Source: Arcobacteraceae bacterium
GTDB lineage: Bacteria > Campylobacterota > Campylobacteria > Campylobacterales > Arcobacteraceae
DNA: 54,874 nucleotides
Reading direction: 5' to 3'
Assembly: GCA_028687375.1 (NCBI GenBank)
Contig: JAQUAG010000013.1
Span: 1 to 54,874 of the forward strand
The notes under the pieces are model-generated. The model worked only from the letters and a program-made list of their open reading frames with translations, was not told where the DNA came from and did no database searches. Of the stretch, positions 37,539 through 41,412 are shown piece after piece. The number at the start of each line of letters is the position of its first letter. Within the stretch, counting starts at the first letter, position 1. The translations under genes and the position numbers were made by a program.

Positions 37539-37606
37539 ATATAACGTTGGAAATGAGCCGATGAATTGCCCGCAGGTAATTTATTGGCTACACTGATTTG
37601 TTATAT
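37539..37606 (-). other. integron attC site (attC-0)
   Basis: On the plus strand it runs from ATATAAC (37539-37545) to GTTATAT (37600-37606), mutually complementary outer boxes. Inner stem AGCCGATGAATT/AATTTATTGGCT (37556-37567, 37578-37589) has ten Watson-Crick pairs and two G-T pairs. Loop GCCCGCAGGT. It closes the HNH cassette, whose stop codon directly adjoins it. Confidence 0.85.
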
Positions 37607-38007: not shown

Positions 38008-38694
38008 TTATTTTGTTGTAATTATTGGAGTGAGTACTCTTTGTAAACCTTCTTGGTTCAAATCAACTCTAAATATAAACTGGTCATTTTTATAGACAAA
38101 GTATTTCTTTTTAAAAAATGGAAAACCCATTCTCCGAGAAGTTAAACCTTCAAATGACGTATTAATAAAAGAACAATTATTTATTATAAGGCCAAAAGCA
38201 CTTGGAGTCATTTGAAACGAAAAATTTTGTACTCCTAAAAAATTTATTCGTTGTTCATCACTATTAGAGCGTGCAATATGTAGCATTCTGTCATATTGAC
38301 CTATTCTTTTTTTTATATGAAATTTAGGTAATACATTGGCTTTATTCTTATCATGAACGAAATACATGAGCCATAGTCCAATCCTGACTTTATCGAACCA
38401 ATCAAGTATCAATGACATTTCGGAAGAGTTTATTTTTTCACCTATTAATATCCTTTCCATAATAGGTTTAGTTTCTGCTTCCAGTTTTGCAAAATCTGTG
38501 TTACATGTCTCACATGCAGGCAGTGTGAATTGATTAATTGAAAATTTTTTTATAGTACCATCTTGATTTAAACCGACAAGGATATCTCGATTAGGATCTC
38601 CTGTCATCTTAATTAACCATTTTGGTATGACATGCTCTTTATTTTTATTTTTTGGTTTTTCTCCACAAAATACACAAAATTTATTTTTAGACAA
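38008..38694 (-). CDS. zinc-finger HNH-like nuclease (integron cassette), probably frameshifted
   Basis: 228 residues from a TTG at 38694 (AAAGGA 5 nt upstream). CVFCG (Cys7, Cys10), EHVIPKWL (Glu20-His21) and PACETCN (Cys61, Cys64, Asn65) give the treble-clef layout of HNH-like endonucleases. The middle is Trp/aromatic-rich. The C-terminus ends in TTK at a run of four A residues; one extra A would continue into the next reading frame. Possible DNA-damaging or defence protein; activity not testable by sequence. Confidence 0.65.
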   Translation of the reverse strand: MSKNKFCVFCGEKPKNKNKEHVIPKWLIKMTGDPNRDILVGLNQDGTIKKFSINQFTLPACETCNTDFAKLEAETKPIMERILIGEKINSSEMSLILDWFDKVRIGLWLMYFVHDKNKANVLPKFHIKKRIGQYDRMLHIARSNSDEQRINFLGVQNFSFQMTPSAFGLIINNCSFINTSFEGLTSRRMGFPFFKKKYFVYKNDQFIFRVDLNQEGLQRVLTPIITTK

Positions 38695-38756: not shown

Positions 38757-38825
38757 ATATAACGTTTGACTTGAGAAATAGTTGCGCCGCAGGGTCAACT
38801 ATTTCTCTCCAAGGTTTTGTTAGAT
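38757..38825 (-). other. integron attC site (attC-1)
   Basis: Plus strand from ATATAAC (38757-38763) to GTTAGAT (38819-38825), the latter fitting GTTRRRY. Inner stem GAGAAATAGTTG/CAACTATTTCTC (38773-38784, 38796-38807) is perfect over 12 bp, loop CGCCGCAGGGT. Closes the PIN cassette and precedes the HNH cassette. Confidence 0.9.
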
Positions 38826-38849: not shown

Positions 38850-39677
38850 TTAAAAAAACTTTTCCCATAATGGTTCAATTCTAGTGCCGATAATAGCTTT
38901 ACCAATATTATCTAATCCTCTAACCATTACATATAATCCAGCTAATATCTGCAATCCTTCTTTTGGACCCAAAGTGGAATAATTAAATAATGGAAAGAAT
39001 ACATATGATGACATAATTACACCAGCAAAAAACTCAAATACTCCATATGATAATCTAAACTTTTCTCTAAACCAAAAAAGTATAATCCCTACAATAGGTA
39101 ATGCTACTAGTGTTCCCCAAACTGTTATTGTTGATATGATAATATTTAAATAAAAATAAATTAAATTACCTAATATTGACGCAAAAATCCCAAGGAAAAA
39201 ACTTATAAATAATTGTTTTTTTTGAGATGATACAATTTTATTTGCAGAATTTTTAACTTCTTCATTAATTGTTTCATTATCAGACTCATCTAAAAATACT
39301 TTACCAGTGATAGTTTTTACACCATTCTTTTTTAAAACTTTTGCAAATTTCAAATCATCAGTAACAACAATAGGAACATTAGTTTTTGATTCTTCTAGTG
39401 CTATATATAAAGTGTCTATATCACTATCACTTAATTTATAATTAGATTTATCTAATTCTGATATATTTTTTGTGGGATTTTTAGGAGCATGAATAATTTT
39501 GATTCCATTATCTATAAAACTTGATACAAATTTGAAAATATCTGGCATTTTAGTTTTTGGGCCAAACATATAAAGTTCATCCATTACAGATTTAGGTATA
39601 ACCATTTCTCTACTTTCTATTCTAGAAAGAATTTGTGGATATTGAATTAAAATATTTGTATCAATTATATATATCAT
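38850..39677 (-). CDS. PIN-domain protein with C-terminal membrane domain (integron cassette)
   Basis: 275 residues. The N-terminal 130 residues form a PIN nuclease: DTNILIQYP (Asp6), MDELYMF (Glu34), SDSDIDTLYIA (Asp84-88) and VVTDDLKFAK (Asp107/108), so the acidic metal site looks complete. A linker of about 25 residues leads to four hydrophobic segments (about 156-179, 183-203, 212-230, 240-253). A membrane-tethered RNase or toxin is the inference. It is alone in its cassette; SD AAGGA lies 5 nt before the ATG. Confidence 0.75.
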   Translation of the reverse strand: MIYIIDTNILIQYPQILSRIESREMVIPKSVMDELYMFGPKTKMPDIFKFVSSFIDNGIKIIHAPKNPTKNISELDKSNYKLSDSDIDTLYIALEESKTNVPIVVTDDLKFAKVLKKNGVKTITGKVFLDESDNETINEEVKNSANKIVSSQKKQLFISFFLGIFASILGNLIYFYLNIIISTITVWGTLVALPIVGIILFWFREKFRLSYGVFEFFAGVIMSSYVFFPLFNYSTLGPKEGLQILAGLYVMVRGLDNIGKAIIGTRIEPLWEKFF

Positions 39678-39701: not shown

Positions 39702-39774
39702 ATCTAACGACTGACTTGAGAAATAGTTTGCCAGTTAGGGTAATAAACTATTTCTCTCCTAGGTTTTGTTAGCT
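39702..39774 (-). other. integron attC site (attC-2)
   Basis: Plus strand from ATCTAAC (39702-39708, fitting RYYYAAC) to GTTAGCT (39768-39774). Inner stem GAGAAATAGTTT/AAACTATTTCTC (39718-39729, 39745-39756) is perfect over 12 bp with loop GCCAGTTAGGGTAAT. Arms nearly identical to attC-1, so these two belong to one attC lineage. Closes the nuclease-ATPase cassette. Confidence 0.9.
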
Positions 39775-39777
39775 ATA

Positions 39778-40953
39778 TTAACTTGTAATGACTTCTATAA
39801 CTTTAGAGTCAAACCAACTTTCAACCATTTCTTTATGATATTTATTTTGAAGTATTATTTTAAGTTTTTTTCCAGAAGGTAGTCTCTTTACAATTTCATC
39901 AAGATATGCATATAAAGAACTTATCATAAAACTTTGTCTAGATATATGTAAACTATAAACTAAACATTCATCATGAAATATAAAAGTGGATGCAGCTGTT
40001 TGTGCTTCAATTCTTCCCATAAAAATAAAATCTTCAAATGAAATCATACACTTGTCTGGTTTAATTCGAACAATAGGGTTATTAAAATTTAGAGTTATTA
40101 TATTTTTACTATTTGTTCCATCATATTCATATATTGTAGACATTTCTTGTTTATATTGATCTAAAAAGTATTTAATATATTTTAAACCTTGCATGGATGT
40201 GTTTGTCTGCATACTTTCTGACTTTAAAATCTGATCAAAATATTTACCATTCTCTTTAATAATAATTCTATTAGAATAAATTTCCACTTCAAGTTTTTTA
40301 GCTTCACCATGCCTATATGCATTAGAGGAAATTTCTAATACAAAATCTCTAACCTCATGTCTAAAGTTATTATCAAGTTCACATTTAATATCATCTACTT
40401 CAAATAATGAAGCTATTTTTTGTTCATGATCATGACTTAAAGGGAGAATTAGATTTAGAGAAGATGATGTTCTGTGTAAGTTTGGAGAAATAAAACTTTC
40501 AGGATAATATTTTCTTAAAAGTGTGGGATAATTTTGAATTTCTTCAGATATATCTGACCAATCCCAAGTTGAGACAGAAAATAACCCTGCATTCATATTT
40601 TCAGTATTAACTGTTCTTGTAAATGCTTGGACATTTACATCTCTTTTTCCTGTAGTTGCTAAAATAAATTTACTGATTTTAGGTTGAAATGAAGTAGCTT
40701 TTAATACTTCATCTCGTAATTCATTTTCAGTCAAATTTCTATCAAGATATGTATCTTTTCCTTTACATTGGATTCCAATTAGTTTACTTGTTCCTGAACG
40801 GTGATCATAACCATATATATCAATACCATTTTGAGCTTGTCCTCTTCTAGCATGCATTTTTGTTTCAGAATCTGATAATAATTCACTCCATAAACCATGA
40901 CAAAGCTGTTCAAATTCATCCCAATTACTTGGGGGTAAGAGTTGTTTTGTCAT
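39778..40953 (-). CDS. PD-(D/E)XK nuclease fused to GHKL ATPase (first integron cassette)
   Basis: 391 residues from the ATG at 40953, where AAAAGGA lies 6 nt upstream; the longer frame to 40998 would cross the attI junction. Residues 1-130: Mrr-like nuclease with Glu14, GIDIYGYD (Asp45) and GIQCKGK (Gln62-Cys-Lys64). Residues 195-295: GHKL ATPase, N-box EISSNAYRHG (Glu207, Asn211), ENG (234-236) and SMQGLKYI (253-260). The last 90 residues are unassigned. The combination suggests ATP-gated DNA cleavage, as in phage-defence proteins; inference only. Confidence 0.7.
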   Translation of the reverse strand: MTKQLLPPSNWDEFEQLCHGLWSELLSDSETKMHARRGQAQNGIDIYGYDHRSGTSKLIGIQCKGKDTYLDRNLTENELRDEVLKATSFQPKISKFILATTGKRDVNVQAFTRTVNTENMNAGLFSVSTWDWSDISEEIQNYPTLLRKYYPESFISPNLHRTSSSLNLILPLSHDHEQKIASLFEVDDIKCELDNNFRHEVRDFVLEISSNAYRHGEAKKLEVEIYSNRIIIKENGKYFDQILKSESMQTNTSMQGLKYIKYFLDQYKQEMSTIYEYDGTNSKNIITLNFNNPIVRIKPDKCMISFEDFIFMGRIEAQTAASTFIFHDECLVYSLHISRQSFMISSLYAYLDEIVKRLPSGKKLKIILQNKYHKEMVESWFDSKVIEVITS

Positions 40954-41031: not shown

Positions 41032-41071
41032 CAAATAGCATATATAAAATATGTCGTATATCAAAACAACG

Positions 41072-41250
41072 AAAAATGCCTTAAATAAGGTGTTTTTAGA
41101 TATTTAACTATAAAAAATATTGCAAATTGCCATATTTTTTAGATTAATTTTAAGTTTATGATATAGTTTTTATGTATGTTTATTACCGATATTTAGATGA
41201 TAATAGTACATCATGTATGTATATTACGGTAATATCGTAATAAACCTACA
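41072..41250. other. repeat-rich intI promoter region
   Basis: The 290 bp between the junction and intI hold no gene. There is an interrupted hairpin AAAAATGCCTT...AAGGTGTTTTT (41072-41097) and a long inverted repeat whose left arm (41173-41193, TGTATGTTTATTACCGATATT) recurs inverted at 41231-41250 with a few differences. These sit where integrase repressor or LexA-type sites would be, but the motif is not a known LexA box. Confidence 0.45.
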
Positions 41251-41277
41251 TTTTGTTAAATTTATTGGAGGTATATT

Positions 41278-41364
41278 GTGGGTAAAAAATTATTGGATAT
41301 TATGAAAGATAAAATTAGATTTAAACACTATAGCATAAGCACAGAAAAAACTTATGTACATTGA
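41278..41364 (+). pseudogene. intI: integron integrase (intI) N-terminal remnant
   Basis: GGAGG (41267-41271) 6 nt before a GTG starts a 28-codon reading frame. LLDIMKDKIRFKHYSISTEK followed by TYVH matches the IntI N-terminus ([24 protein letters not shown] in IntI1). The next codon is TGA where TGG (Trp) is expected, and after it no integrase sequence is found: the ArsC/Spx-like gene ends 32 nt downstream. The catalytic domain is gone. The strong SD and orientation opposite to the cassettes are as in intact integrons. Confidence 0.85.
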
Positions 41365-41384
41365 AAAAGATATGGGTAAATTGG

Positions 41385-41412
41385 AAAAAGAGTTTTTACA
41401 AAAACTCTTTTT
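41385..41412 (-). terminator. terminator at the ArsC/Spx-like gene end
   Basis: AAAAAGAGTTTTT (41385-41397) and AAAAACTCTTTTT (41400-41412), a perfect 13-bp stem that includes the stop codon of the minus-strand gene. Ends tgt-gatC-arsC and also faces the intI remnant. Confidence 0.65.

Follow-up and report, generated by a model that had tools for sequence, protein, structure and literature searches.

In the VapKSC system, three genes encode a STAS-GHKL kinase, a separate STAS antitoxin and the PIN RNase VapC. The kinase is proposed to be activated by ssDNA and to phosphorylate the STAS antitoxin, upon which the PIN nuclease is released, and the system protects against phage Bas42; CapK/CapS provides a second precedent of a GHKL kinase paired with a STAS (PMC13373217). 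The GHKL-Shedu protein VcSduA, which acts against phage, combines GHKL ATPase and PD-(D/E)XK nuclease in one chain: its paraMORC-type GHKL domain is N-terminal, its DUF4263 nuclease is C-terminal, no STAS has been reported and the GHKL domain has been suggested to act as an ATP-gated, non-kinase clamp (PMC12137116).

The window analysed here (contig JAQUAG010000013.1 of an Arcobacteraceae bacterium, 54,874 nucleotides in full) encodes on its minus strand a protein of 391 amino acids, P0001 (39778..40953), in which a nuclease, a GHKL and a probable STAS-like domain follow one another. As we read it, P0001 would be like VapKSC in that a kinase-like GHKL domain, a STAS and a nuclease act together against phage with the GHKL-STAS pair as the switch. 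However, unlike VapKSC, it is one chain with the order nuclease-GHKL-STAS-like, and has neither a PIN domain nor a second STAS. Instead of a three-gene operon, a single ORF is present between an intI remnant and an attC, and the nuclease is Mrr-like. VapK-like kinases of the host's relatives give weak scores with the GHKL profile of the P0001 family. These relatives (genomes G030, G041, G074 and G040) carry conserved GHKL-DUF4325-PIN loci of the VapKSC layout (L049-L052). The domain order of P0001 is opposite to that of VcSduA, and no match was found between P0001 and the SduA/DUF4263 models, which sets it apart from Shedu. The presence of a GHKL domain with an N-box, a short ATP lid and a probable STAS partner is also reminiscent of the anti-sigma kinases and their antagonists, SpoIIAB/SpoIIAA and RsbW/RsbV, but P0001 differs from these in being fused with a nuclease in one chain and, as far as is known, in having no sigma factor. 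On balance, we favour the reading of P0001 as a defence protein that works alone and as a single chain, with its nuclease restrained by a GHKL-STAS core serving as sensor and switch.

The P0001 gene starts with an ATG at 40953, ends with a stop codon at 39778-39780, is preceded by a ribosome-binding site (AAAGGAA) 6-7 nt 5' of the ATG and is the sole ORF in its cassette. The cassette is closed by an attC (39702..39773, minus strand) with a 12-bp stem GAGAAATAGTTT and a GTTAGAT core. The attC of the next cassette (38757..38823, minus strand; z -4.1) has nearly the same stem, and a third attC-like palindrome, read by eye, with a different stem (AGCCGATGAATT / AATTTATTGGCT) is located at 37541..37606 (minus strand). 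On the other side of the gene, the intI remnant (41279..41395, plus strand) consists of ~28 codons MGKKLLDIMKDKIRFKHYSISTEKTYVH followed by a stop and then by a large internal deletion. At the DNA level, 83 nt of it align with 78% identity (E=8e-14) to the first part of the intact intI of a congeneric genome, which scores 405.8 bits to TIGR02249 and has the first codons MGKKLLDILRDKIRFKHYSIRTEQVYVG; a phmmer search of the fragment against the PDB gave no match. Alignment with the intact integron of the congener also delimits the former attI/promoter region, which lies between the intI remnant and the first cassette (41041..41278, unstranded), and positions 41111-41186 of the window are 73% identical to that integron over 76 nt (E=4e-5). 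Because both the start of intI and the DNA upstream of it match the intact integron of the congener, P0001 is, as judged from sequence, the attI-proximal cassette of an integron whose integrase is dead (a truncated pseudogene). A single ORF with its attC, in an array beginning at the attI/intI remnant, is the organization of an integron gene cassette. When the exact attC stem was sought with its loop fixed at 19 nt, a weak search because loops vary, none was returned from the rest of the genome.

The original prediction had placed P0001 first after the Pc promoter, where expression would be highest. P0001 does occupy the cassette position next to the intI remnant, but that integrase gene is a pseudogene and promoter-like hexamers between the remnant and P0001 are at chance level (6 observed against 4.5 expected from shuffles), so that the argument for highest expression gains no support. 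The pseudogene also invites the view that P0001 is itself a decayed, non-functional cassette protein within a dead integron, with which the replacement of Asp by Glu in its G1 box and the lack of a near-identical homologue in any collection searched would agree. We consider this very improbable in view of the intact 391-aa frame with its ribosome-binding site, the retained nuclease catalytic residues and N-box, and the intact attC. Phage-defence genes are known to be stored in integron cassettes, according to literature cited in PMC12444791. As defence libraries in integrons are already established, the cassette location of P0001 adds plausibility and not novelty to a role in defence.

The cassette array is rich in nucleases. 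The next cassette (38850-39677, minus strand) encodes a 275-aa PIN_4-domain protein (PIN E=6.7e-7, no PADLOC match) with hydrophobic stretches resembling transmembrane helices, possibly a membrane-tethered RNase, and the product of the cassette after it (38008-38694, minus strand) has 228 aa and, at its N-terminus, weak similarity to HNH_5.

The N-terminal domain of P0001 (residues 1-155; 40489..40953, minus strand) is very probably a PD-(D/E)XK nuclease effector of the Mrr/LmuA-like type. Pfam Mrr_cat aligns with residues 10-109 at 19.7 bits, just below the 21-bit cut-off, and PHROG 8991 matches the N-terminus with E=2e-29. Alignment of nine N-terminal domains reveals that G38, Q41, G43, D45, G60, Q62, C63 and K64 are invariant, and a motif conserved to this extent is not due to chance. 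Among the nuclease residues named earlier, D45 and Q62-x-K64 (Q62-C-K64) are as described, whereas position 14, taken for Glu, holds Phe, and E15, in an F-E-x-L-C motif, is the conserved acidic residue.

Relatives of this domain, at ~27-39% identity, are the N-termini of nSTAND/TPR defence-type proteins. It starts ~1000-1300-aa nSTAND NTPase proteins in Janthinobacterium and Enterobacter, and TPR plus PIN-TPR-GreABC proteins of the same length in Qipengyuania and Allorhizobium, and is also present in ~310-aa plasmid proteins without known function. In the host's own family, the domain has relatives in ~1430-aa proteins; these match PADLOC PDC-M54A and, across the nuclease domain, PADLOC LmuA (E=1e-4 to 1e-6). 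Because the domain recurs in nSTAND, TPR-GreABC-PIN and LmuA-matching proteins, we regard the P0001 nuclease, on the strength of its sequence relatives, as a shuffled effector of the defence type. A related N-terminal PD-(D/E)XK effector is found in Lamassu LmuA and in Avs; unlike these, P0001 has neither an SMC-like LmuB nor a STAND NTPase, and its sensor part is GHKL-STAS-like. No SMC-like LmuB partner is present near P0001, as the neighbouring cassettes encode just the PIN-TM and HNH-like proteins. The Mrr_cat-like N-terminus would also suit a restriction enzyme of the modification-dependent kind (type IV, Mrr-like), with a GHKL-CTD part that does no more than bind DNA. However, the core is also joined to a nucleosidase (in P0004, described below), which would have no obvious use for DNA targeting, and we find this explanation the least credible of those considered.

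The middle domain (residues ~190-292; 40078..40386, minus strand) is almost certainly a GHKL ATPase domain of the histidine-kinase/anti-sigma-kinase type, with a short ATP lid. Its N-box is intact (E207-x3-N211-x3-H215-G216), in agreement with the ExxxNAxxH motif proposed before, N211 included, and E207, N211 and H215 are invariant across all four proteins found to carry the core (P0001 to P0004). The glycine boxes that had also been proposed are present as traces of G1 and G2 and are partly degenerate: in the G1 box (E234-N-G236-K-Y-F239) Asp is replaced by Glu, and G256 alone is retained in the G2 box. Among the core carriers, G1 reads DNG/DDG in P0002/P0003 and ENG/ETG in P0001 and P0004. 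ATP binding could be weakened in P0001 because of these changes in G1 and G2. A three-sequence core profile matches ordinary histidine-kinase ATPase domains and HATPase_c_2 proteins (E 1e-4 to 1e-7), including a stand-alone HATPase_c_2 protein whose gene adjoins a STAS gene. No match to HisKA was found in P0001, which argues that its GHKL domain is not that of an ordinary histidine kinase. The conserved motifs and profile matches bear out the original prediction of an Mrr-like PD-(D/E)XK nuclease and a GHKL ATPase in one cassette protein.

The C-terminal domain (CTD, residues ~293-391; 39781..40077, minus strand) had been left unassigned, and no model of Pfam, NCBIfam or PADLOC matches it. Our comparisons with hhalign and Foldseek suggest that it is quite likely STAS-like. 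The proteins on which SpoIIAB-type GHKL kinases act have the STAS fold, and this fold is typically phosphorylated by GHKL kinases. With a probable STAS-like third domain, the reading of P0001 shifts from a nuclease with an ATPase to a nuclease with a kinase-like ATPase and a substrate-like domain. Against a profile of 24 STAS sequences, hhalign, aligning 87-93 columns, gave P=0.0016 for the alignment of the four CTDs and P=0.0007 when P0001 was taken by itself, values that were not pre-registered, the STAS hypothesis having been formed after viewing the data. None of 200 column-shuffled STAS profiles reached the score (maximum 15.5 against 22.1), and the controls gave P 0.4 with the reversed profile and 0.38-0.55 with response regulators. 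Taken singly, the CTDs of P0004, P0002 and P0003 gave P values of 0.014, 0.12 and 0.15, respectively. Membership of the CTD in DUF4325 (VapS-like STAS) is not claimed, the hhalign match being out of register with P 0.095.

Single-sequence AlphaFold2 modelling of the full-length protein resulted in a mean pLDDT of 37. The model of the CTD alone has an overall pLDDT of 52; it is poor in the first half but reaches 67-74 across most of residues 350-389, and its elements follow in the order strand-helix-strand-helix-strand. Foldseek search of this model against the PDB returned mostly STAS anti-anti-sigma factors in its best 13 rows (RsfB, TM1442, SpoIIAA and others), with a best probability of 0.87, E values of 0.13-0.15 and no match with E <= 0.001. 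In VIA-align, Z did not exceed 6.3 and the best rows were not STAS; STAS chains appear at Z ~4 amid many unrelated rows, which would mean little alone. The STAS fold is supported but not proven. S345/S346 are located where the predicted second helix begins and are aligned with the phosphoacceptor D-S/T-G position of STAS. The corresponding residues are Y-T in P0002, S-H in P0003 and S-S in P0004, so that a Ser or Thr is present within one column of the phosphoacceptor position in each of the four carriers. The cores are only ~20-25% identical, and C302 (~40048-40050) and C330 (~39964-39966) are invariant in all four, which may reflect a disulphide or a metal site. Leave-one-out tests with the CTD alone among the four carriers gave P 0.013-0.24, mostly not significant, and the equivalence of the CTDs thus rests on their co-linearity with the GHKL domain.

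These features bear on the main rival explanation, in which the GHKL domain has no kinase activity and serves as an ATP-gated clamp or a dimerisation module, the CTD is a platform for binding a ligand or partner, and release of the nuclease is purely conformational. VcSduA, which also has a GHKL domain and a PD-(D/E)XK nuclease in one chain, requires both activities for defence (PMC12137116), the Ser/Thr position does not occupy strictly one column across the four carriers, and the G1 and G2 boxes of P0001 are degenerate, all of which would fit a clamp. However, the paraMORC-type GHKL domain of VcSduA differs in type and position from that of P0001, and in P0001 the GHKL domain is followed by a domain that resembles the usual substrates of GHKL kinases. 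We therefore consider a clamp unlikely, though it deserves the most attention among the alternatives. By analogy, a phospho-switch formed by the GHKL and STAS-like domains of P0001 is put forward tentatively.

The GHKL-CTD core was found in three further proteins, each with another N-terminal effector. P0002 (QIG70391) is from Rhizobium phage RHph_N28_2, where its gene adjoins the terminase on the opposite strand as a phage moron. Its core matches that of P0001 over residues 194-367 (tblastn E=7e-6), and its N-terminus is an HNH domain similar to the HNH effectors of CBASS (E=9e-11 to 1.6e-10). P0003 (genome G036) and P0004 (genome G094) were found with profiles that excluded the respective target and ran through GHKL into the CTD. 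The core of P0003 was detected with E=1.1e-7, and its N-terminus is a PD-(D/E)XK nuclease (LmuA E=3.5e-21, Avs2 E=2e-8). The match of P0004 covers GHKL and most of the CTD (E=4e-6), and its N-terminus is a PNP/MTA-SAH-nucleosidase that matches PNP_UDP_1 and the PN-superfamily effector of CBASS, and also weakly resembles the N-terminal part of a NACHT protein. A PD-T4-6-like kinase gene (E=5e-54) precedes the P0004 gene by ~210 bp, and a PDC-S26 match is nearby.

The architecture is uncommon, as had been supposed: no core carrier beyond P0002, P0003 and P0004 was found in ~590 genomes of the host's phylum, presumably the Campylobacterota, or in 72,556 plasmid records and 50,697 phage records. 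Searches of the plasmids by tblastn with the cores of P0001, P0002 and P0004 found no further carriers, no relatives emerged when genome and viral contigs were scanned with degenerate patterns built from P0001, P0002, P0003 and from alignments of the core, and phmmer found no match of P0001 in the PDB. The nine aligned N-terminal domains are too divergent to yield a pattern of this kind. The core is either rare or diverged past the reach of the search tools used. A match in G235 and most matches from the order and phylum look like ordinary histidine kinases and were not accepted as family members; proteins from Streptomyces, Acidovorax, Rhizobium and P2-EC46 that share the HNH domain of P0002 are without the GHKL core.

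All four effectors appear by their matches to be of types that other defence systems use, and it is typical of defence proteins to exchange effectors while their core is conserved. P0001 itself has no NCBIfam or above-cut-off Pfam match, and the PADLOC search that the original prediction had proposed returned no model for it. The suggestion that P0001 may be a phage-defence protein gains indirect support from the swapping of effectors around the conserved core, and we consider a defence role likely, supported although not proven. HNH endonuclease and PNP superfamily effectors are also types of CBASS, and recur in P0002 and P0004. Unlike CBASS, however, the GHKL-core proteins have no cyclase and no SAVED domain, and PADLOC, run on four cassette ORFs of the window, returned no match, so that no CD-NTase gene was found next to the effector. 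A related possibility is a dormancy or stress module of the toxin-antitoxin kind that answers DNA damage and not phage as such. Toxin-antitoxin modules are often found in integron cassettes (PMC3710099), and ssDNA from repair activates CapK (PMC13373217). But P0001 is a single-gene cassette with no antitoxin gene adjacent, its family draws on an effector set common to CBASS, Lamassu and Avs, and one member (P0002) is carried by a phage, which makes such a module rather improbable.

For the favoured reading of P0001 as a defence protein under GHKL-STAS control, we infer the trigger, the phosphotransfer, the target DNA and the outcome for the cell as follows. The C-terminal GHKL-STAS core would keep the N-terminal DNA nuclease inactive. 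Phage infection or DNA damage would trigger the GHKL domain, in cis or within a dimer, and the triggered GHKL domain would act on the STAS-like domain at S345/S346, either phosphorylating it or causing it to re-dock. The freed nuclease would then cut DNA and halt the infection, probably at the expense of the cell. Extended to the other carriers, it is conceivable, though we would not rely on it, that they form an undescribed single-chain immune family in which a fused GHKL kinase-STAS substrate core controls interchangeable N-terminal effectors by phosphorylation. Its effectors might comprise two PD-(D/E)XK nucleases, an HNH and a nucleosidase; phosphorylation might be intramolecular or intra-dimer, so that a single polypeptide would accommodate all of partner switching.

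What is new here is the GHKL-STAS-like core together with effector swapping. Two recent lines of work would come together in one small protein, the first on kinase-STAS switches by which immune operons or nucleases are controlled, the second on the defence libraries of integrons. If true, the GHKL-STAS core is a sensor module absent from the defence library searched (PADLOC) and, carrying effectors common to CBASS, Lamassu and Avs, could be used to find further systems. Because P0001 is a single chain of 391 aa, restraint of a nuclease by a GHKL-STAS switch is directly testable with point mutants.

The effectors of the other carriers and their surroundings show further associations. A PD-T4-6-like Ser/Thr kinase is encoded directly upstream of P0004 (L117:5274-6815, plus strand), and the presence of IS21-like and resolvase-like genes around this locus gives it the appearance of a mobile defence-like patch. 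The HNH domain of P0002 is fused to several unrelated C-termini (L043:3995-5176, L047:488-1594, L048:3992-5173 and L044:4001-5548), among them, in Streptomyces, an ABC-type ATPase, and is also found in the 'lysogenic conversion protein' of P2-EC46. On Streptomyces plasmids (H71-H73, H77), the LmuA-type nuclease of P0003 is fused to Ser/Thr protein kinases, an unusual pairing of effector and sensor.
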